DNA from: a virus | Strand: one strand, 5' to 3' | Virus record (IMG/VR): IMGVR_UViG_3300024346_000373 | Coordinates: 1 to 29,028 of that record | DNA: 29,028 bases | Shown: positions 9,316-29,028 of the stretch, in pieces | Numbering within the stretch: position 1 is the stretch's first letter | Layout: each line of letters opens with the position of its first letter | The notes under the pieces: model-generated | Seen by the model: the letters and a program-made list of their open reading frames with translations, nothing else | Database searches by the model: none | Told to the model about the DNA's origin: nothing | Made by a program: the position numbers and the translations under genes

Positions 9316-10903
9316 TCATTTACCAAAAGGGCGAAGTTGTTCACAAGTCCATTGCTTCGGCTTGTTTGCTTTCCAATCGCTGATGCATTTGTCGAGAGTT
9401 TCATCCCACGCTTTAATCATGTTGGGATAACCGAACTCATGCTCGCAATAAGCAATGTTTTTTGTTGCCATAGCCGATTTCTCTTCGGGTGTCATCTTAT
9501 ACACTTTCCAGTAAGCTTCAGCTACATCTAGATAATTAACATGGTCGTCATAGATGTATGGTACCATTTGGCTTCCAACCATGGTACGTGCTGCTGGTTC
9601 GATTGCTACACCGTGTTCTGTACCATCACGATAGTCAACCACCTGACGAGTCATGCCACCTGTTTTAAGGGCAATAATAGGTTTGCCAACCATCATTGTG
9701 GATAGAGTAGCTAGCCCAAAGCCTTCTGCCTTGGAAACGTTAATAGTAAAATCGGTAACGTTATAAAGAGTGTTCATATCATTGAAATCAACCTTTTGGG
9801 TTGAAAACATGACATTATGTGCGATTCCAAGCATTTCAGCAACAGCTAAAAGGTTTGGGCCTTCGTTGTCATTTGGATCGGTATGCATGATAAGCATTGC
9901 TTTACGATGGTCTTCTTCTTTTTCCAAACGCTCAAGGAATACTTTCCATCCGTTTAATACGTCGTTAGGCATTTTGCGGGTAGCATTACGATTAACCCAT
10001 GTACCAACAAACCAATCCGCTCTATCTCCAAAGTTTTTTCTACGCAGCTCTGTTTTAACTTGTTCTGGTAGAGGGAAATAAACTTCTTTTGGAAATGCGT
10101 GAGGAATATAATTTGTACGTTCTGGGAACTTTGGTTTCACAAGTTCATATGTTTTGTATGAAAGGCAGTTGATAAGATCTGTTGAACGATACCAAACATC
10201 GTTGAATGCTGGATATGGATCGTTGTCCCAAACGTGCCAATAGGTGATTGGGCAAAACTGATGAATTTCATCTTCGATTTCCCAGAGCCACATGAACTGA
10301 CGAGGATCTGTAAAAAGAAGAACTGCGTCGGGACGTTCTGTTACTAGTAGGTTCCGAATAATGTCATGGTTTCCGAATCCATCAACAGGTTTGATGATGA
10401 AGTCTGGGTTGACCATAATTGGATCGTAGTTTGGATGCTTTACTGCGCCACCCAAGCAACGAAAACTATACTTGCCCGTATTTAATAGTCCTTGAATAAG
10501 AAATCTTGCTTGAACGCCAACACCACTTGTGCATACGATTTATCAAATATCTTTCAATATTTGTCAGACTATATCATCATCTCAACCAATTGGTTGAGAT
10601 GCTGGGCGCTGTCGGATCATCACCATGAGCTTTTGAGGGCTTTTAGGTTAACCGTAGTCGTTGAACCTTCTCCAGTATTTCTACCGAGGAGCTTGGCTGC
10701 TGATTGCCTAATCTTCATGTTTTTCATACTGTCACACTTACCATTTCTAGTTATGTTGTAGTACATGAAGCTCTAAAGGTTTTCCAGCAATTCACCCAGT
10801 TTTGTATCCGCTATTATGTCAACGGATGGTCAGAGAGCATTAGGATTTTATGTTTCTTTTGTGGAAGCATTGGCTGGACTAAGCCTGTTGAATCTATAAG
10901 CAT
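9316..10903 (-). CDS. Glycosyltransferase split by a group I intron (join 10903-10822 and 10535-9316)
   Basis: The gene has two exons. Exon 1 is 10903-10822: ATG at 10903, AAGGAG at 10916-10911, protein start MLIDSTGLVQPMLPQ then KKHKILMLSDHP. Exon 2 is 10535-9316. Without splicing, the exon 2 frame is closed by TGA-TAA just upstream (10545-10540). With splicing (10822 to 10535) the frame gives SDHPLCTSGVGVQARFLIQG, the Gly-rich N-terminal loop expected in GT4 enzymes, and a 433-residue protein (1302 nt, divisible by three). The donor-binding motif SKAEGFGLATLSTMMVGKP lies in the C-terminal half. The first 15 residues come from DNA that also encodes the 3' end of the upstream homing endonuclease, so the original N-terminus may have been replaced. 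A TTG at 10455 also opens the frame but would delete the conserved loop. Confidence 0.85.
10536..10821 (-). ncRNA. Group I self-splicing intron (286 nt, no internal ORF)
   Basis: The minus-strand RNA shows the conserved core in order. P is AAUUGCUGGAAA (10792-10781); Q is AAUCAGCAGCC (10705-10695); P4 is UGCUG/CAGCA. R is GUUCAACGACUA (10666-10655) and S is GAUAUAGUCUGA (10575-10564); P7 is GACUA/UAGUC. P3 is UGAAU/GUUCA. P5 has an 8-bp CUUCAUGU/ACAUGAAG extension. P6 is capped by a GAAA tetraloop. P8 is CAUCUCAACC/GGUUGAGAUG (10601-10578) and P9 is CAAAUAU/AUAUUUG (10563-10544). P1 pairs exon AUCCGUU (10827-10821) with guide AGCGGAU (10812-10806), putting a U.G pair exactly at the 5' splice site (10822). 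The intron ends with G (10536). P10 can form between exon UAUG and CAUA. Subgroup IA is likely from the extra helices between P3 and P8. In vivo splicing is unproven. Confidence 0.92.
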
Positions 10904-11771
10904 CAATTTTCTCCTTGAGAAGTGTTATAACCTGATTCCTATCTTTTGTGTAGTCAGATTCCCATACAGGAATAATAACGTAACCAAACGCTTCAAGTAT
11001 TTCTTTTCTGATCCGATCAGCTTCCCAAATATCTTTAGCAAGAAGCCCTTTTTTCTTATGCAAATAGGTTTCTTCATACATATTTGGATTACAATGCCAA
11101 TAGTTCCCCATAAACTCAACTATGACGTTCAGTTCCGGAATGAGGATATCTGCAAAGTATCGTATGGTATGAAAAGGCAATAAAACTTCAAGTTTGCAGG
11201 CGTATGTCTCACACAAGCTATCATAAAGTTCTCTTTGTGGTTTTGAAACAGTGCTGCGCTTGGCTAAGAAATAGGCATTAGTCACGCCATAACGTTCGAA
11301 TAAAGTAGATTTCTGTTTATTTTTTTGTTGTTCAGTGAGCCTTTTGCCATACATCGGATTTTGATCGCCGCCGAAAAGTAAAGTAAAATACGACTTTTCG
11401 CATTCAATCCCACACAACTTTACCAACGACTCCATAGTTTTGAATCTAGGTTCAAGATAAATTGGCTGTCGGCACATTTTGCAAGAGCCATAAAACCCTT
11501 GGCGCTCGTTGGTTCTTAGACGCCATTTGTCATATGTTCCATTCTGGATGTAATACTTTGAAGCACAGGAACGATCGCAGAAAGATTTTGGTTTATACCG
11601 TTTTGCTCTGAATAGTTCCCCACAAAACTTACATGTTCTTGTTACTGTAACGTTCTCATCGCTCTTTTTTCTGCGATTTTTACGATGCAATATCCGACAT
11701 TGCTCAGAGCAAGTTTTCTGAAATTTTGAAGCTTCAAATTTTGTTTTACAAATAAGACAGTCTTGAGTCAT
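10848..11771 (-). CDS. Homing endonuclease, Vsr/EDxHD-like, with N-terminal zinc fingers
   Basis: This is a 307-residue protein. Three Cys-rich fingers come first: C5/C8/C21/C25, C47/C50/C65/C69 and C97/C100/C120/C124. A NUMOD-like linker follows (GGDQNPMYGKRLTEQQ and TLFERYGVTNAYF, about 134-168). The C-terminal catalytic part has FADILIPELNVIVEFMGNYW (206-225), then KDIWEADRIRKEILEAFGY and VIIPVWESDY (246-274), the layout of Vsr-fold nucleases such as EDxHD homing endonucleases. It would cut an intron-less or insertion-less allele and promote its own transfer. It lies outside the ribozyme, upstream of exon 1, and overlaps exon 1 by 56 nt in another frame. The GGGAG ribosome site sits in possible RNA stems (11773-11813). 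Confidence 0.85.
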   Translation of the reverse strand: MTQDCLICKTKFEASKFQKTCSEQCRILHRKNRRKKSDENVTVTRTCKFCGELFRAKRYKPKSFCDRSCASKYYIQNGTYDKWRLRTNERQGFYGSCKMCRQPIYLEPRFKTMESLVKLCGIECEKSYFTLLFGGDQNPMYGKRLTEQQKNKQKSTLFERYGVTNAYFLAKRSTVSKPQRELYDSLCETYACKLEVLLPFHTIRYFADILIPELNVIVEFMGNYWHCNPNMYEETYLHKKKGLLAKDIWEADRIRKEILEAFGYVIIPVWESDYTKDRNQVITLLKEKIDAYRFNRLSPANASTKET

Positions 11772-20808: not shown

Positions 20809-21807
20809 TCATCGGCGATAACCAAATGATACTTTACTCGAAAATTCATGGGTTGTTCTAGCACCAATATAAGAAAACGCTGAACGCAACCCACCAGCAA
20901 TCTCTTCAACTACAACCTTAGCACTTGGTTTGAGGTTTGTGGTTGTACTTCGACCTTCTGGTGTTGGGAGTCCCTTTTCAGCTTCCCGAATTACAGCCAT
21001 TGCATCTCGTGAAGCCATGCCACGATAAATAGGTTTGTACGTATGATTAACAGGATCATAAATTTTCGAACGTTCTGGATTCTCTGGGCAACCTGCGAAA
21101 AAGTATCCGCTCATAACTGCTGTTGCCCCAGCGCCAATAGCTTTGGCTATATCACCGTACGCTCGTGCTCCACCATCTGCAATAATAGGTTTATCGGTTA
21201 CTGCTGCGCATTCTCGTACGGTTGTAAACATTGGAGTATTAACTCCTGTGACATTTTTTGTCTCACAGACGAATCCACCACCGATACCGACTTTGATAGC
21301 GTCAACACCCCAACGATCTAGATCTATTACACCTTGTGGAGTTCCAACGTTTCCTGCCATGATGAAAACATCTCGACCAAAACGTTCACGAAGCCAAGAA
21401 ACTGTATTTTTCATCATTTGTGAATGACCATGGGCAATGTCAACCACAAAGAAACGAGCTCCTGCACTATAAAGAGCTTCTGCTCGTTCTTGCCAATCAC
21501 GACTAGTACCAATCGATACAAAACAATCCAAACCTTCATTGGATGCAACTTGAAGATAAGAAAGAACGTTATCAGCAATAGGAAGAAAACGATGAATGGC
21601 ACCACATGCACCAACTTCTGCTAGTGCCTTTGCCATCTCGCCTTCGGTAATTGTATCCATGTTAGCAGCAATAACCGGTACACGAAGCTTCATCGCAAGG
21701 TTCGAACTAGAACTTGCCAGAAGTGCAGAAGTATCGACTTCTGCACGACTGATAATGTTAGAAAAACTAGGTCGAATAAAAACGTCGTCATATTCGTAAT
21801 AGATCAT
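20809..21807 (-). CDS. IMP dehydrogenase / GMP reductase family protein (no CBS domains)
   Basis: This is a 332-residue TIM-barrel enzyme. VIAANMDTITEGEMAKALAE (45-64) is the IMPDH/GMPR family motif; DIAHGHS (123-129) and MAGNVGTPQG (150-159) are phosphate-binding or core loops; KVGIGGGFVCETKNVTGVN (172-190) is the active-site loop with catalytic Cys181; IIADGGARAYGDIAKAIGAG (208-227) and VMSG bind phosphate; YRGMASRDAM (261-270) is closer to IMPDH's YRGMGS than to GMPR's usual form. It lacks CBS domains, as GMPR does and some IMPDHs do. It would convert IMP to XMP or GMP to IMP to steer guanine nucleotide supply. The loop deviates from both textbook consensuses (GPGS-[IV]-CTTR). RBS AAAGGAAC precedes the start. 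Confidence 0.9.
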   Translation of the reverse strand: MIYYEYDDVFIRPSFSNIISRAEVDTSALLASSSSNLAMKLRVPVIAANMDTITEGEMAKALAEVGACGAIHRFLPIADNVLSYLQVASNEGLDCFVSIGTSRDWQERAEALYSAGARFFVVDIAHGHSQMMKNTVSWLRERFGRDVFIMAGNVGTPQGVIDLDRWGVDAIKVGIGGGFVCETKNVTGVNTPMFTTVRECAAVTDKPIIADGGARAYGDIAKAIGAGATAVMSGYFFAGCPENPERSKIYDPVNHTYKPIYRGMASRDAMAVIREAEKGLPTPEGRSTTTNLKPSAKVVVEEIAGGLRSAFSYIGARTTHEFSSKVSFGYRR

Positions 21808-24293: not shown

Positions 24294-24593
24294 TTATTCT
24301 GAAATTCGCTTCCAAGCTTTAAGCACGCTTTCGTTTATTCTTGACCATCCAATGTCACCATACTGGGATAAAGCCTTAATATCCCGTGACGTATATTCAT
24401 CATTATTCGCTATACACTCCAACAAGCAAATATACTCATGCTCTCGAATGGAAAAACAATCTGGACCGTATATGTTGTGCCTGTCACCAAAGTAAAAATA
24501 GAAATTAGGGTACGCTGCTCCTAGCCTCCCTACTGCTAGCACGCCATGTAACAGGGCAGGCTCCCAGCTATATAGCTTTCCTATCTTAATCAT
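24294..24593 (-). CDS. GKLY...G-x-IG family small protein (member 1)
   Basis: From ATG 24593, 99 residues (a TTG at 24605 adds four). It starts MIKIGKLYSWEPALLHG and ends with ALSQYGDIGWSRINESVLKA. The two ends are the family marks, with a G-D-I-G in place of the usual DGxIG. The middle (SIREHEYICLLECIANNDEY) aligns in position with the others' strand plus helix. Members look like small beta-barrel proteins. Members 1-3 (24294-25186) form a direct tandem array, so local duplication is likely. The function is unknown. Confidence 0.75.
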   Translation of the reverse strand: MIKIGKLYSWEPALLHGVLAVGRLGAAYPNFYFYFGDRHNIYGPDCFSIREHEYICLLECIANNDEYTSRDIKALSQYGDIGWSRINESVLKAWKRISE

Positions 24594-24605
24594 GATGCAT
24601 CTCAA

Positions 24606-24911
24606 TTATTCTGTTACAAGGTTCCAATCGCTAATCGTATATACCCTGCACCATCCAATCGATCCGTCCGGACTTAGAGCTTTAAATGCAAACATACATT
24701 CGCTTTCCGACGCAATCTTACGAACTTCTTGGTTTGTAATGCACGCTAGCACGCAAACAACATCGTTGGATTTAATTTCGAACTTAACACCGTGTGTAAA
24801 CATATTCTCGTTTACTTTGTCATAGAAAAACAACGACTGCCGAATATCGCCCAAATGTCGTTTAGGCTGCCATGCATATAGTTTTCCTACCTTGAACATG
24901 TCCCAGCTCAT
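24606..24911 (-). CDS. GKLY...PDGSIGW family small protein (member 2)
   Basis: ATG 24911 overlaps the stop of member 3 (ATGA), so I prefer it to ATG 24926 (101 residues). MSWDMFKVGKLYAWQPKRHL opens the protein. SNDVVCVLACITNQ is the middle strand. KALSPDGSIGWCRVYTIS is the clearest copy of the C-terminal family motif. It is closest to member 1 in the block (both have GKLYSW/GKLYAW, C-LACI/C-LECI and IGW), so the two probably arose by tandem duplication. The function is unknown. Confidence 0.8.
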   Translation of the reverse strand: MSWDMFKVGKLYAWQPKRHLGDIRQSLFFYDKVNENMFTHGVKFEIKSNDVVCVLACITNQEVRKIASESECMFAFKALSPDGSIGWCRVYTISDWNLVTE

Positions 24912-25186
24912 AGAGTTTGTACCCATTCGTCTGGGTATGCCCTCGCCCAGCCAACGTTGCCATTCGGGGTAAGTACAAACAAGTCGTAAACGATAGTGTC
25001 ATGTACTTGGAAAAAATGCCCTACTTTAAGGAGTAGAACATGGTCGGGATCATGTATGAATTCTTTTTCGGCCCCCAACTTGAATATGTCTGTTTGCTCA
25101 CCCAAGTAGACTACTGCTACTCGCTTTCCTGAGCTAGCAGGTCGATATAATCGACCTACAATGAACTGTGTTTTAGTGGTTTTCAC
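24908..25186 (-). CDS. GRLY...PNGNVGW family small protein (member 3)
   Basis: The frame is open to TTG 25195; GTG 25186 gives 92 residues (VKTTKTQFIVGRLYRPASSG). Neither start has a clear ribosome site, so the true start is uncertain. The C-terminal motif is FVLTPNGNVGWARAYPDEW. HDPDHVLLLKVGHFFQVHDT is the middle strand, comparable with SIREHEYICLLECI of member 1. Its start lies inside the end of the deaminase gene (stop 25173), so it depends on translation of that gene. The function is unknown. Confidence 0.75.
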   Translation of the reverse strand: MKTTKTQFIVGRLYRPASSGKRVAVVYLGEQTDIFKLGAEKEFIHDPDHVLLLKVGHFFQVHDTIVYDLFVLTPNGNVGWARAYPDEWVQTL

Positions 25187-25595
25187 GGGGGTCAATTATC
25201 CGCAACACGCCATACTCATTGTTGCTAATCGTGTAGATTGCTCGCTTGATTCCGTAGCTATGCAAAACAGCTTGACACATTGTGCAGGGCTTTGCCATAG
25301 CCAAAGCAAGATTGTTTTGATTGTCTGCACGAAGGCGCCGAACAACAACGATCTTGCTTCCACGGAGATCGATCTTTCGCCTCACATTCAAAACAGCATC
25401 AACCTCGGCATGAATACTGTTGCAGTGTGGATTAGTCTTATAACGCTCCTGCAAACCAGAGTTCGCACGAGAGTTATAACCAACAGAGAGAACACGCCCG
25501 CCGCCGACAATCGTCGCTGTAAGCCAAGCTGGCATACTGTCATCGTGTCGGTGCGACCTCGCAAAACCAAGCGTGGCTTCGATCAGGCGGTTCAT
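25173..25595 (-). CDS. CMP/dCMP deaminase-like zinc enzyme
   Basis: This 140-residue protein has the zinc-deaminase pattern: CNSIHAEVDAVLN (58-70, His62 ligand and Glu64 proton shuttle in H-A-E) and KPCTMCQAVLHSYGIKRAIY (102-121, Cys104 and Cys107). This identifies the CMP/dCMP deaminase superfamily. SVGYNSRANS (37-46) is the substrate-side loop. A phage deaminase supplies dUMP for thymidylate synthesis, but tRNA adenosine or other cytosine substrates cannot be excluded; the sequence is shorter than dCMP deaminases that carry an allosteric dCTP/dTTP-binding insertion. It precedes member 3 of the small family, which it overlaps. Confidence 0.87.
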   Translation of the reverse strand: MNRLIEATLGFARSHRHDDSMPAWLTATIVGGGRVLSVGYNSRANSGLQERYKTNPHCNSIHAEVDAVLNVRRKIDLRGSKIVVVRRLRADNQNNLALAMAKPCTMCQAVLHSYGIKRAIYTISNNEYGVLRIIDPRENH

Positions 25596-25603
25596 TGGAT
25601 CGT

Positions 25604-25786
25604 TCAGTCTTCGTCAGTAACGCCGAAAAAAAAGTCATCGTCGGATTCAGCGATTGGCCGGATTGCTCCCCGTTCCAGCTTTCGCTGTCGTTCACGCTCC
25701 AAGGCATCCTGCCCCACAGAGCGAGCCCTACGAACGGGTTGGAAACTCTCGCCGCTAAAACGCTTGTTCTTGTTGTGATTAGCCAT
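25604..25786 (-). CDS. Small charged hypothetical protein (60 aa)
   Basis: The protein reads MANHNKNKRFSGESFQPVRR, followed by a basic helix (RSVGQDALERERQRKLERGA) and an acidic, aromatic end ESDDDFFFGVTDED. The mixed charge and the terminal D/F block resemble short phage peptides that bind nucleic acid or a partner protein. The ATG 25786 is preceded only by a weak AAAAG-type site. Its end lies 8 nt before the deaminase start. No family is recognised. Confidence 0.6.
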   Translation of the reverse strand: MANHNKNKRFSGESFQPVRRARSVGQDALERERQRKLERGAIRPIAESDDDFFFGVTDED

Positions 25787-25818
25787 TTTCTTTTGTTTTC
25801 TTGTTTATTAGGTGTGAA

Positions 25819-26070
25819 TCAAACCGAAAGATATTGAGCGGTATAGTCAGAAAGATAGTGCATACCAACCTCGGCAGCACGCTGATGAACAGTGGTAGTA
25901 ACGCTATACTTGCGAGGATTGATCGTAACAGTCTTGTGATCACGATCAACCGTGGCAATTACGGTGTTATAGCTGCGAACCTCGTTACCCTTCATGGTAA
26001 GAGAACCAAACTTGAAGCTCTTGCCAGTGTTAACAAAGGTCACGAACTCATTAGAACGGATGCGAGCCAT
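25819..26070 (-). CDS. Small conserved-looking phage protein (83 aa)
   Basis: It reads MARIRSNEFVTFVNTGKSFK, then FGSLTMKGNEVRSYNTVIAT and VTINPRKYSVTTTVHQRAAE, a compact all-beta start and a helical end. I recall short phage proteins with the same N-terminal pattern (TGKSFKFGS...GNEV.SY...IA, then NxxKYSxTTxxHQ) of unknown function; this is by memory only. ATG 26070 has a purine-rich AGAGAGAAAAGAA upstream. It lies after the 84-nt AT-rich gap 26071-26154, which has an AACAATATTGTT palindrome but no clear promoter. Confidence 0.75.
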   Translation of the reverse strand: MARIRSNEFVTFVNTGKSFKFGSLTMKGNEVRSYNTVIATVDRDHKTVTINPRKYSVTTTVHQRAAEVGMHYLSDYTAQYLSV

Positions 26071-26154
26071 TTCTTTTCTCTCTTTCTATAAACAGAATAC
26101 CATGCAACAGTGATTATATAAAACAATATTGTTCTTTTTTTGTTTTTGGTTTAT

Positions 26155-26415
26155 TTACAGGGTTTTGACGAGTTCAATTTCATCGTACCAGAACGAGGTA
26201 TATCCGATTTTTCCATCTGTTGTTAGGATTTTGAGTTTGTGGATGCTCCCGCCCAAGAAAATTTCTGGGCTCATACCGATTCCTTCCGACGTTTCGAGTG
26301 CCACAAATGTTTCATCATTTTTGATTGTGGCAATAATCTCAAGTTTTTCATCAAAAACAGCGGTTTCTGCAAAAAGCTTTTTGCAGAAACGATACATTTT
26401 TCCTGCGAGGATCAT
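26155..26415 (-). CDS. GKMY...DGKIGY family small protein (member 4)
   Basis: This 86-residue protein starts MILAGKMYRFCKKLFAETAV and ends KILTTDGKIGYTSFWYDEIE, followed by LVKTL. The G-K-M-Y and T-D-G-K-I-G-Y positions are the family marks. The middle segment NDETFVALETSEGIGMSPE has no strong resemblance to the tandem members, so it is a divergent copy. It lies 5 nt after the preceding ORF. The function is unknown. Confidence 0.75.
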   Translation of the reverse strand: MILAGKMYRFCKKLFAETAVFDEKLEIIATIKNDETFVALETSEGIGMSPEIFLGGSIHKLKILTTDGKIGYTSFWYDEIELVKTL

Positions 26416-26420
26416 TGCGG

Positions 26421-26714
26421 TTAGTTCATTACGGTTGTGTTAACAATTCCAAGGCGAAACAAAGCTTTTACAAAAGCTTCTTCGCTATGTGTTGGAATGT
26501 TGATGTTTGCTTCGGCGGCAGAGTCTTTAAAAGCTCCACGAATGGAGTTAGCAATATAATTCATATACACTTCGTTGGTTGGTGTGTTCCCATCCGGATG
26601 ATCCCGTTTGCAAATATATGCAACAAAATCCTTTGCGTTTGTATACTGAATAACCTCACGATCAAAATCGGTTTTGCCGAAAATAACCACCATCTCACCA
26701 GTCTTTGCAACCAT
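26421..26714 (-). CDS. Hypothetical protein (97 aa) with a strong ribosome site
   Basis: The gene starts with ATG 26714 behind AGGAGGAAACTG, the best Shine-Dalgarno in this block. The protein reads MVAKTGEMVVIFGKTDFDRE, VIQYTNAKDFVAYICKRDHP and then NSIRGAFKDSAAEANINIPT and EEAFVKALFRLGIVN. It has a first strand, then probably helices, and no motif I recognise. The 148-nt gap upstream (26715-26862) starts with a hairpin and holds no clear tRNA or promoter. Confidence 0.75.
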   Translation of the reverse strand: MVAKTGEMVVIFGKTDFDREVIQYTNAKDFVAYICKRDHPDGNTPTNEVYMNYIANSIRGAFKDSAAEANINIPTHSEEAFVKALFRLGIVNTTVMN

Positions 26715-26831
26715 CAGTTTCCTCCTGTCAACAACTAGAGTCTATTCCCAGAACCACTCAATTGTCTATGCACCGATCAATCACGGTCTTGCATCAAACT
26801 CTTGAACCATACATAGTGTGTTCGAATCGTT

Positions 26832-26852
26832 TTTACCTTAAAACAAGGTAAA
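26832..26852. repeat. Hairpin just downstream of the 62-aa gene
   Basis: TTTACCTT (26832-26839) and AAGGTAAA (26845-26852) form an 8-bp inverted repeat with a five-base loop, starting 10 nt after the stop of the gene at 26863. In the minus-strand transcript the stem is followed by AAACG and not by a U run, so it is probably a 3'-end-protecting hairpin or a weak terminator. Confidence 0.5.
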
Positions 26853-26862
26853 TTGTGAAAAA

Positions 26863-27051
26863 TCAATCATAACAATCATTGCAATCTTCGTTAAGAAGAT
26901 GATCATCAGCAATCTCACATTCATATTCCTCAAGATATTCACGTTGCATATTGCGTTGACCTTTACGTGGTTCATTTAAGGAACGTGCATGCATCCCACC
27001 CTTGCGGTTATAAGCCAAAACAGCAATCATATTACGAACGTTGTGATTCAT
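26863..27051 (-). CDS. Small hypothetical protein (62 aa), acidic C-terminus
   Basis: It reads MNHNVRNMIAVLAYNRKGGM, then HARSLNEPRKGQRNMQREYL and EEYECEIADDHLLNEDCNDC, ending YD. The first half is basic and the last third is acidic with three Cys. An AGGTGGT-like site precedes the ATG. No family is recognised. It lies between two hairpins (27091-27114 and 26832-26852), so it may have its own short transcript. Confidence 0.6.
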   Translation of the reverse strand: MNHNVRNMIAVLAYNRKGGMHARSLNEPRKGQRNMQREYLEEYECEIADDHLLNEDCNDCYD

Positions 27052-27090
27052 AGGTTTATCATACCACCTGTTTGATATTATCTAAATATA

Positions 27091-27114
27091 TTTCGTTTGA
27101 TTAATCAAACGAAA
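27091..27114. terminator. Perfect 24-bp palindrome over the end of member 5; possible terminator
   Basis: The arms TTTCGTTTGA and TCAAACGAAA flank a TTAA centre. The palindrome contains the stop codon of the gene at 27105-27341 and is followed on the minus strand by the T/A-rich TATATTTAGATAATAT. It could act as a weak intrinsic terminator for either strand or as a binding site for a dimeric protein. The gene's last codons (Arg-Phe-Val-stop) are inside it. Confidence 0.45.
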
Positions 27115-27341
27115 CGTCTCAGCTTGTCAGGTTGCCAGAATTCTCCAATATTGCCATCAGGCAGGAGAACACGAACGCTACATGGCTTTCCGTTGGGATT
27201 GTTACCAAATTTATATACCTCAAGAACGAACATATATGTGGTTGCTGTTTTGTAATACATCCATTGATTAGCTATACGAAACGCAATCGGGCTGTGGATT
27301 CCTTCCACGATATACAGGCCCCCTACATCAATAGTTGTCAT
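27105..27341 (-). CDS. GGLY...PDGNIGEF family small protein (member 5)
   Basis: This 78-residue protein starts MTTIDVGGLYIVEGIHSPIA, with middle strand TYMFVLEVYKFGNN and C-terminal motif VRVLLPDGNIGEFWQPDKLR, ending RFV. The V-L-L-P-D-G-N-I-G-E pattern is nearly the same as in member 6 (VLLPDGSIGE), making these two closest relatives. ATG 27341 overlaps the stop of the 62-residue gene upstream (ATGA). The stop lies inside a 24-bp palindrome. The function is unknown. Confidence 0.8.
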   Translation of the reverse strand: MTTIDVGGLYIVEGIHSPIAFRIANQWMYYKTATTYMFVLEVYKFGNNPNGKPCSVRVLLPDGNIGEFWQPDKLRRFV

Positions 27342-27526
27342 ACAAGAGATGCATTCATGAAACGATGCTGGGGGATGATTTCGTAACCTTTGGTTTTAAG
27401 GTCGTAAACCACGAAGGTGTTTTTTTCATTATCTACGTCACAAACAATACCATGCACATTCGCTTTGTGCGTAAACGTGAATTCATAACACTTGCCACGA
27501 CGCAAGGACGTAATCTTGTTGTTCAT
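27338..27526 (-). CDS. Small hypothetical protein (62 aa), possibly a reduced family member
   Basis: It reads MNNKITSLRRGKCYEFTFTH, KANVHGIVCDVDNEKNTFVV, YDLKTKGYEIIPQHRFMNAS and ends LV. RGKCYEF near the start resembles the GKxY of the neighbouring family, and the strand pattern is similar, but the PDGxIG end is missing, so relationship is only possible. An AAAGGT site precedes ATG 27526, and an ATCATATATGAT palindrome lies 12 nt upstream of it. The end overlaps member 5 by ATGA. Confidence 0.65.
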   Translation of the reverse strand: MNNKITSLRRGKCYEFTFTHKANVHGIVCDVDNEKNTFVVYDLKTKGYEIIPQHRFMNASLV

Positions 27527-27556
27527 ACCTTTATCATATCATATATGATCGATTAA

Positions 27557-27772
27557 CTAAAATATTTGTTCCAATTTTGGCAAATTTGAATACACGTAAA
27601 GCTCGCCAATCGAACCATCTGGGAGAAGTACCCTGTAATTTGCCCCGAGGCACGATTGTGCTCCCTCTATGATCATGATTATTGTGCTCGAATCATACGA
27701 GCACCATCCTTTTGATGGAGTGAATATGACCATCTCCGGTGTGCATTTATAAAGTTTCCCAACAATGATCAT
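27557..27772 (-). CDS. GKLY...PDGSIGE family small protein (member 6)
   Basis: This 71-residue protein reads MIIVGKLYKCTPEMVIFTPS, with STIIMIIEGAQSCLGANYRV as the middle strand and VLLPDGSIGELYVYSNLPKL at the end. It is the shortest and cleanest member, and shows the family's minimum: GKLY start, hydrophobic middle strand, then R-V-L-L-P-D-G-S-I-G-E. ATG 27772 overlaps the stop of member 7 (ATGA). The function is unknown. Confidence 0.8.
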   Translation of the reverse strand: MIIVGKLYKCTPEMVIFTPSKGWCSYDSSTIIMIIEGAQSCLGANYRVLLPDGSIGELYVYSNLPKLEQIF

Positions 27773-28056
27773 TGTGTAACCTCGAACAGTCTATCCGCTG
27801 CAACCGAAAAATCACCAATCACACCATCAGGGAAAAGCGCCCGCCAAGAAGACCAATCCTTTGGTGCATACATGAGACCTCCTTGGCCGAGAATTACAAC
27901 AATCGTACCGCATTCATACTTCCGGAATTTACCTTCGGCTACAACCAAAAAGTGTGGCATCGGCGTTCCGACTGATCTGCTAACTGGAACCATTTCCACC
28001 CGGTACATTTTACCAATTATAATTTTGCCATATTTGGTATTGATGAAATTAGTCAT
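27769..28056 (-). CDS. GKMY...PDGVIGDF family small protein (member 7)
   Basis: This 95-residue protein reads MTNFINTKYGKIIIGKMYRV, then GTPMPHFLVVAEGKFRKYEC and GTIVVILGQGGLMYAPKDWS, ending SWRALFPDGVIGDFSVAADR and LFEVTQ. The middle GTIVVILGQGG and the end R-A-L-F-P-D-G-V-I-G-D match member 6 in layout. ATG 28056 overlaps the mnmA stop (ATGA), so it is translated with the tRNA-modification enzyme. The function is unknown. Confidence 0.8.
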   Translation of the reverse strand: MTNFINTKYGKIIIGKMYRVEMVPVSRSVGTPMPHFLVVAEGKFRKYECGTIVVILGQGGLMYAPKDWSSWRALFPDGVIGDFSVAADRLFEVTQ

Positions 28057-29028
28057 GAAATTACACCTCCACCAACAACTTCATCACCATGATAAAACAC
28101 ACAACTCTGACCCTTTGCTGCTGCAAACACAGCGTCCCGCAAAGTGACTTGCAGATTATCGCCAGAATTCGTAATTGTTTCGACGGCAACCGGAGCGGAG
28201 TGGTATCGAATGATTGCTGTGATGTTCTCGCAGTTTACTCCAGCATCGATCCTAGCATTTGTGAGAAAGAGAGTTCTAGAACTGGCTTGCTCCCTAGAGC
28301 CAACCATGATGTCCCCAGAAGAAGATACAATATTGAGAACGTAACGACGCCGACCATTGTTATCAACGCCGGTACGCTGTCCTGCGACATACTTCGTGAA
28401 CCCCTCATGCTTACCTACAATCTTTCCATCCACATCAATAAAGTTACCAACAGAGGAAACAACATTGTTTCGCTCCAAAAACTTTTCCTTGGTTCCTCCA
28501 CCAAGGAAACACAAGTCAGTTGAATCTTTCTTATCAGCAACGTGAAGACCAAACTCACGGGCAAGTGCTCTAGTATCGTCCTTGCTATCAAAATCTCCAA
28601 GGGGGAAAATAAGTCGAGAAACAACAGATGCTGGAGTTTCCCAGAGAAAATAACTTTGATCCTTCTTAAGATTCTTAGCCTTGGTGATTCGTCCATTGTT
28701 TACCCTTGCATAATGACCTGTAGCAATATACTCACAACCAAAATGATTAGCCACAGCCGCAAGCACAGGAAGCTTAATGGTGCTGTTGCACGTAACGCAT
28801 GGATTGTATGCGACACCCTGCTTTGCTCCATCCAGATACCGATCAATCACGTTCTTCTTGAACTGCTGCTTCCAGTTAGTGACAAGATATTCAATGCCCA
28901 TTTGGTCACAAACCATACGAGCATCACGAATATCTTTGAAGGTACAACAACCTTCGGAATCCTCCGAGGTTGTCTCAAGAAGTTTGAGTGTATAACCAAA
29001 GACTTCGTGCCCTTGTTGCTTAAGAAGA
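28053..29028 (-). CDS. mnmA: tRNA-specific 2-thiouridylase MnmA (N-terminus outside the window)
   Basis: The frame is open to the window edge, so the SGGVDS ATP loop is missing. What remains matches MnmA in order: LLKQQGHEVFGYTLKLLE; CCTFKDIRDARMVCDQMGIE, with the family's double Cys; AYNPCVTCNSTIKLPVL, with the first catalytic Cys; ATGHYARV; QSYFLWETP; KKDSTDLCFLGG, with the second catalytic Cys; AGQRTGV (the usual GQR.G motif); and the C-terminal OB-like domain ending VGGGVIS. MnmA makes the 2-thio group on wobble U34 of Lys, Glu and Gln tRNAs using a sulfur relay from host TusE or the like and IscS. Being phage-borne, it may tune decoding of A-ending codons. All key residues seen are intact, so it should be active. 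Confidence 0.93.
   Translation of the reverse strand, partial: LLKQQGHEVFGYTLKLLETTSEDSEGCCTFKDIRDARMVCDQMGIEYLVTNWKQQFKKNVIDRYLDGAKQGVAYNPCVTCNSTIKLPVLAAVANHFGCEYIATGHYARVNNGRITKAKNLKKDQSYFLWETPASVVSRLIFPLGDFDSKDDTRALAREFGLHVADKKDSTDLCFLGGGTKEKFLERNNVVSSVGNFIDVDGKIVGKHEGFTKYVAGQRTGVDNNGRRRYVLNIVSSSGDIMVGSREQASSRTLFLTNARIDAGVNCENITAIIRYHSAPVAVETITNSGDNLQVTLRDAVFAAAKGQSCVFYHGDEVVGGGVIS

Follow-up and report, generated by a model that had tools for sequence, protein, structure and literature searches.

Seven small genes lie between positions 24294 and 28056 of the 29,028-bp IMG/VR virus fragment IMGVR_UViG_3300024346_000373 (record G000; the whole fragment is called the window below). They form one family, and their products are predicted to fold as SH3-like barrels. 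T4-type baseplate genes (Baseplate_J- and gp25-like) are found in the same window. Because the nearest isolates according to the baseplate wedge protein, Flavobacterium phage immuto and Microcystis phage Mel-JY01, are only ~28-31% identical, the phage is, judged from its sequence, a member of an uncultured T4-like branch. DNA-level homology to the window was sought in isolated phages and none was found. The genes of the block and two neighbours are as follows; the leave-one-out E is the value with which a profile hidden Markov model (HMM) of the other six members retrieves the given one.

24294..24593, minus strand: member 1, 98-99 amino acids, MIKIGKLY...YGDIGW, sister of member 2; leave-one-out E 5.5e-5
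24606..24899, minus strand: member 2, 97 amino acids; leave-one-out E 8.4e-11
24908..25195, minus strand: member 3, 95 amino acids, TTG start, ortholog at L009 11853-12119 (tree support 0.88); leave-one-out E 1.8e-4
26155..26415, minus strand: member 4, 86 amino acids, ortholog group in L008, L009 and L010 (tree support 0.994); leave-one-out E 4.6e-3
27105..27341, minus strand: member 5, 78 amino acids; leave-one-out E 5.3e-6
27557..27772, minus strand: member 6, 71 amino acids, minimal form, six strands in the AlphaFold2 model (pLDDT 90.9); leave-one-out E 1.9e-6
27769..28056, minus strand: member 7, 95 amino acids, first gene after mnmA, relatives at L008 10406-10660 and L010 5482-5712 (tree support 0.90); leave-one-out E 1e-4
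28053..29027, minus strand: mnmA (tRNA 2-thiouridylase), truncated by the window end; Pfam PF03054, E 3.5e-52
25173..25595, minus strand: cytidine/deoxycytidylate deaminase-like gene, within the block and outside the SH3-like family; PF00383, E 6.3e-10

Seven genes of one family

A preliminary description of this DNA had proposed seven related open reading frames (ORFs). All of them are present on the minus strand, with probable coding lengths of 71 to about 98 amino acids, and their relationship is confirmed: among 195 window ORFs, the HMM of any six members retrieves the seventh with E from 8.4e-11 to 4.6e-3, while the best non-family ORF reaches 0.056 to 0.44. The fear that the shared motif is too short to be significant is thus not borne out. 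When the seven-sequence HMM was compared with 6,197 ORFs, matches with E of 1.1e-9, 1.3e-7, 4.5e-7 and weaker were obtained. These lie downstream of mnmA in the independent contigs L008, L009, L010 and L011, none of which was used in building the profile. In ortholog pairs of window members, the proportion of synonymous differences (pS) is at or near saturation with nonsynonymous proportions (pN) of 0.35-0.46 (for member 4, pS is saturated at 0.78 and pN is 0.38), and we therefore regard them as protein-coding genes under constraint.

The N- and C-terminal motifs recur in the seven-member alignment, where G-x-[LM]-Y has its G and Y invariant and L-x-x-x-G-x-[IV]-G its L and both glycines. The [DN] position expected in the second motif fails in member 1, which has Y before the first motif glycine (SQYGDIG). 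The seven do make up one family in one block, yet the array is discontinuous, with unrelated ORFs such as the deaminase gene interspersed. ORF 27338-27526 resembles the family by eye, yet its E of ~2 against the family HMM rules it out as an eighth member.

In the most sceptical case, seven unrelated small ORFs would share a short motif by chance or through an artefact of annotation. Identity of the members to the first one is indeed only 15-36%, and there are no DNA-level repeats among them. Nevertheless, the leave-one-out HMMs, the independent syntenic orthologs, the saturated pS with moderate pN and the confident fold models described below refute this explanation, whose remaining probability we consider negligible.

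Predicted fold and its possible resemblance to MotB

Two AlphaFold2 models were obtained. The protein of member 6 gives a six-stranded barrel with a predicted local distance difference test score (pLDDT) of 90.9. The second model (pLDDT 87.0) is of a protein from the related 260-kb phage genome G001, belonging to a subfamily with an insert; it has the same strand order, and its helical insert of lower confidence is situated between strands 2 and 3, which is the position of the RT loop. Both models contain a single SH3-like barrel; DSSP shows its strands in the order typical of SH3, together with the RT loop, the c-d hairpin and the 3-10 turn. Foldseek aligns the insert-type model with SH3 domains of Pex13, Lck, Hck and Eps8 (probability 0.93-0.99, E 0.04-0.2; root-mean-square deviation (rmsd) ~2.2 over ~45 residues). 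For member 6, matches in the PDB are WYL, Tudor and SH3b domains with weak E-values, including the UvrD/PcrA Tudor and ribosomal L2 SH3-like domains.

The only Pfam family matched by many members is SH3_3 (PF08239), with 15 of 115 members at E<=0.1. These matches are weak and fall in the C-terminal half; the best of them (E 3.6e-5, 24.3 bits) is below the 27-bit gathering cut-off, and none of the seven window members is matched. NCBIfam TIGR04211 SH3 has matches in five members. The small beta-barrel suspected in the preliminary description thus stands at the level of predicted models, with SH3 topology supported by AlphaFold, Foldseek and weak SH3_3 matches, and these good models lead us to describe the family members as putative single-domain SH3-like barrels. 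They resemble bacterial SH3 domains (PF08239) in predicted strand order, in the position of the GW-like c-d hairpin and in the weak profile matches, and differ from them as stand-alone, single-domain, multi-copy phage proteins, one subfamily of which has an insert in the RT loop.

Among viral models (BFVD), the top matches of member 6 are T4 MotB.1 (P39415) and, from a Shigella phage, a "transcriptional regulator" similar in size to MotB (probability 1.0, E 0.029-0.038, query-normalized TM-score 0.63, rmsd ~7). MotB has a predicted SH3-like KOW domain and an OB fold; it is an early, toxic protein that binds DNA and H-NS, and it has a duplicated neighbour, MotB.1 (PMC6070864, PMC7827196). This is the source of the main rival to the function proposed by us further below, namely that the barrels are early binders of DNA, RNA or the transcription machinery. 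The mentioned Tudor and L2 matches fit such a role. MotB and MotB.1, too, are small proteins, duplicated in a T4-type phage, and their likeness to the family in an SH3-like fold is tentative. On the other hand, the family HMM scores MotB, MotB.1 and MotB.2 at ~1 bit (E at least 0.12) and finds no match anywhere in the T4 genome, so sequence homology to MotB is unsupported. Further, the median isoelectric point is about 5.5-6.4 in seven of eight records, as compared with 9.2 for MotB, although two window members have values of 8.1 and 8.9. MotB is also a strongly basic two-domain protein with two genes, whereas the family consists of single domains in dozens of copies. We consider nucleic-acid binding of this kind unlikely, but worth keeping in mind.

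Spread and age of the copies

In total, ~170 members were recognized across ten related IMG/VR records. The copies within a record are dispersed or in tandem. Iterating the profile over loci retrieved from eight of the records yielded 164 members: 47 in G004 (a 65.6-kb fragment), 41 in G001, 32 in G002 (a 123-kb contig), 19 in G005, seven each in the window and G034, six in G017 and five in G003. Eight further matches are in G039 and one is in G040. The family occupies 17.8% of bases in G004, 7.2% in G002, 6.1% in the window and 4.4% in G001. The most divergent members are those of G005 and G034, where some profile drift is possible. Many further records of up to 157 kb, linked to these through the baseplate protein or MnmA, gave no clear match, and neither did T4, immuto, Mel-JY01 and a 484-kb uncultured phage. 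The family is therefore, as far as profile matches tell, confined to one phage branch within the data searched.

No fitting family was found for 115 members scanned against Pfam, PHROG, NCBIfam and PADLOC; profile scans of the seven window members gave non-significant matches only, and members from the window or from relatives, used one at a time as queries against IMG/VR and INPHARED, gave no family match. This agrees with the initial impression that no published family carries this signature, as none turned up in these libraries or in the open-access literature searched. The same holds for the size of the family and for its design of framework and hypervariable part, although absence from such a collection does not prove that the family is new. 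Phages are already known to have SH3 barrels and expansions of small domains. With ~40-47 copies, the family equals or exceeds the largest precedent that was found (~35). A report on Bacillus phage G describes a zinc-ribbon expansion to ~35 copies (PMC7824862), where likewise a single small domain has multiplied within one lineage to tens of copies per genome; the fold is unrelated, and the passage on this expansion mentions no hypervariable loop. In phage T6, anti-defence genes undergo segmental amplification driven by SegB as an answer to defence (PMC13096335). Tandem gene amplification is common to both cases, but the T6 copies are recent segmental duplications, whereas copies of our family are diverged, mosaic and old.

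The age of the window copies follows from a tree of 161 members (75 columns, deep nodes weak). Member 4 clusters with genes of G001, G002 and G003 (support 0.994), member 7 with genes of G001 and G003 (0.90) and member 3 with a gene of G002 (0.88). Members 1 and 2 are sisters (0.956) and constitute the sole window-specific pair, while G001, G004 and G005 each have separate expansions. As members 3, 4 and 7 have orthologs in other phages, several of them at the same mnmA locus (a syntenic anchor of the small-gene block in five phage records), most duplications predate the split of these phages. Repeated local duplication, as first supposed, is therefore a poor description of the window. The supposed fast divergence, by contrast, is evident: family orthologs are 28-47% identical across phages, compared with 76-81% for the adjacent MnmA. 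Insert-type genes after mnmA number four in G001 and two in G002, and there are none in the window or in G003.

Some minor features accompany the copies. A perfect 28-nt palindrome, GTTTCTGCAAAAAGCTTTTTGCAGAAAC (window 26363-26390), lies within the gene of member 4 and codes for the start of the RT-loop region; it is missing from the three orthologs and could be a template-switch product. GIY-YIG- and HNH-like ORFs were noticed, by eye only, near family arrays; the GIY-YIG-looking ones (L128 3691-4716 and L131 11682-13196, in G002 and G004) are possible homing endonucleases that might drive amplification. Pentapeptide-repeat-like proteins (ANLRGANL...), also recognized by eye among the arrays of G004 (L130 4237-5495, 8885-9424 and 15213-15965), are possibly a second expanded small family.

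Hypervariable insert and proposed binding repertoire

The insert subfamily is best seen in 18 copies of G001 with the common framework GKMYLVKE.FWFLYPTKELA ... CNVxVVEPxTxxVLLE ... LDSNGNIGWI ... YFELVKE, which is broken by 11-25 variable residues. Nucleotide identity is ~0.8 in the framework (ratio of nonsynonymous to synonymous rates, dN/dS, 0.39-0.53) and 0.37 in the insert, where the pooled Nei-Gojobori (NG86) dN/dS of ~2.0 serves as an indication rather than as a formal test, since it comes from non-independent pairs and an uncertain loop alignment. GC content is 70-73% in the insert and 36% in the framework. Codon usage is ruled out as the source of the GC-rich loops, since their GC content at third codon positions is far above the amino-acid/codon-usage expectation (0.80 vs 0.36 +- 0.02 in G001, 0.60 vs 0.25 in G002, 0.71 vs 0.16 in G017). 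The GC-rich stretch recurs in G039, G040 and one G004 gene, and of the 32 segments of G001 in which GC reaches 70% or more over 45 nt, 20 are located in family genes, which make up 4.4% of the genome. Other strongly GC-rich segments (peak 82-84%) of G001, itself 40% GC, are outside the family at 258845-259029, 174009-174146 and 46999-47087. Compared with shuffled loop DNA, the insert is enriched in alanine and depleted in glycine and proline, which fits selection for a helix.

The insert-type copies of G001 are mosaic: the pairwise homoplasy index test gives p<0.001 at k=5 and 10 (p=0.11 at k=20), and distances in the N-terminal framework are almost uncorrelated with those in the C-terminal one. 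Chimeric assembly is unlikely as a source of mosaicism: no two insert-type copies share an identical stretch of more than 69 nt, a length reached in copies 80 kb apart and below usual read lengths. Diversity-generating retroelements come to mind, since they too place a hypervariable patch upon a constant protein scaffold, but the variable stretch of our family changes length and is GC-rich. They are rejected, as neither a reverse transcriptase nor a template was found: no RVT_1 (PF00078) was detected in six records, some of them fragments, by a search that was positive in three known control genomes; and 19 loops compared with the 260-kb genome of G001 had no non-self match except for a 15-nt one to a neighbouring copy. 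The patterns applied to representative contigs of GTDB revealed no bacterial copies of the insert subfamily, and close strains in which loop change could be followed directly were sought and not found. One may imagine a repertoire with shuffled framework halves, in which GC-rich hypervariable segments, apparently made without a template, again and again take the place of the RT-loop tip through a new process independent of reverse transcriptase. This picture is speculative and rather doubtful, including its suggestion of an "immune-like repertoire" process not yet described in phages. If the loop does arise without a template, its diversification mechanism would be worth finding.

Another account of such variation would be near-neutral proliferation, i.e. 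frequent recombination generates copies that are kept as genomic ballast or as recombination substrate. It would explain the extreme copy number, the mosaic structure and the strong variation between related phages. However, reading frames are open in nearly all copies (an in-frame stop occurs in three among the matches listed), purifying selection is seen between orthologs, dN/dS in the framework remains at 0.4-0.5, and loops have a non-random amino-acid composition. We find this account improbable.

The contrast between a conserved framework and a hypervariable GC-rich RT loop rather points to selection for binding diversity. We suggest, with about equal weight for and against, that the family is a repertoire of small binding proteins with which the phage takes over its host, counters defences or excludes superinfecting phages. 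The conserved G-x-L-Y and L-x-x-x-G-x-I-G-W would mark strand a and the c-d hairpin of an SH3 fold with the order a, RT loop, b, c, d, 3-10 turn, e. Being too small for an evident active site, the proteins are most likely cytoplasmic binding modules. Each paralog might grip a different host or rival-phage protein via its variable RT-loop face and thereby block or redirect it. The phage lineage would enlarge and reshuffle the set through tandem duplication and recombination between copies, and in one subfamily the RT-loop tip would be replaced by a hypervariable, alanine-rich, GC-rich helical insert. A role in host takeover or counter-defence, as already suggested in the preliminary description, is plausible by analogy and from the evolutionary pattern; partners, timing in infection and benefit for the phage are what we infer. 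Should they indeed act in counter-defence or superinfection, every array would amount to a natural library of binders for proteins of host or phage.

Several points weigh against such a repertoire. Firstly, the insert subfamily does not occur in the window fragment, whose seven genes are stable paralogs of old origin; the case for an arms race is thus drawn mostly from relatives and includes the indicative dN/dS of the insert. Secondly, no Foldseek match to a solved structure has an E-value below 0.04, and the fold call therefore rests on topology and weak profile matches. Thirdly, curated defence and counter-defence models in PADLOC (which lists mainly defence rather than counter-defence proteins), NCBIfam, PHROGs and Pfam gave no match to 115 members. 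Finally, sigma-70-like sites are no commoner than chance in a promoter scan, and early expression is thus unsupported.

Another use of a hypervariable surface loop upon a constant scaffold would be decoration of the virion, with many small variable proteins coating the particle and diversifying host attachment. SH3b domains often bind cell-wall ligands, and baseplate genes are present in the same window. The block, however, adjoins genes of tRNA modification and nucleotide metabolism, ~17 kb away from the baseplate genes; the sole match to the T4 late promoter TATAAATA in the window is within chance; and many weakly similar copies seem unsuited to a regular coat. Virion decoration therefore appears to us a poor candidate compared with the binding repertoire.

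Apart from the family, this single T4-like phage encodes both a homolog of GMP reductase/IMPDH (inosine monophosphate dehydrogenase; window 20809-21807) and the tRNA thiouridylase MnmA (28053-29027). Sugar-transfer genes were recognized by eye. A group I intron (Rfam RF00028, 101 bits; window 10545-10900, minus strand) overlaps the end of a zinc-finger, endonuclease-looking ORF (10848-11771) and probably interrupts the neighbouring glycosyltransferase gene.

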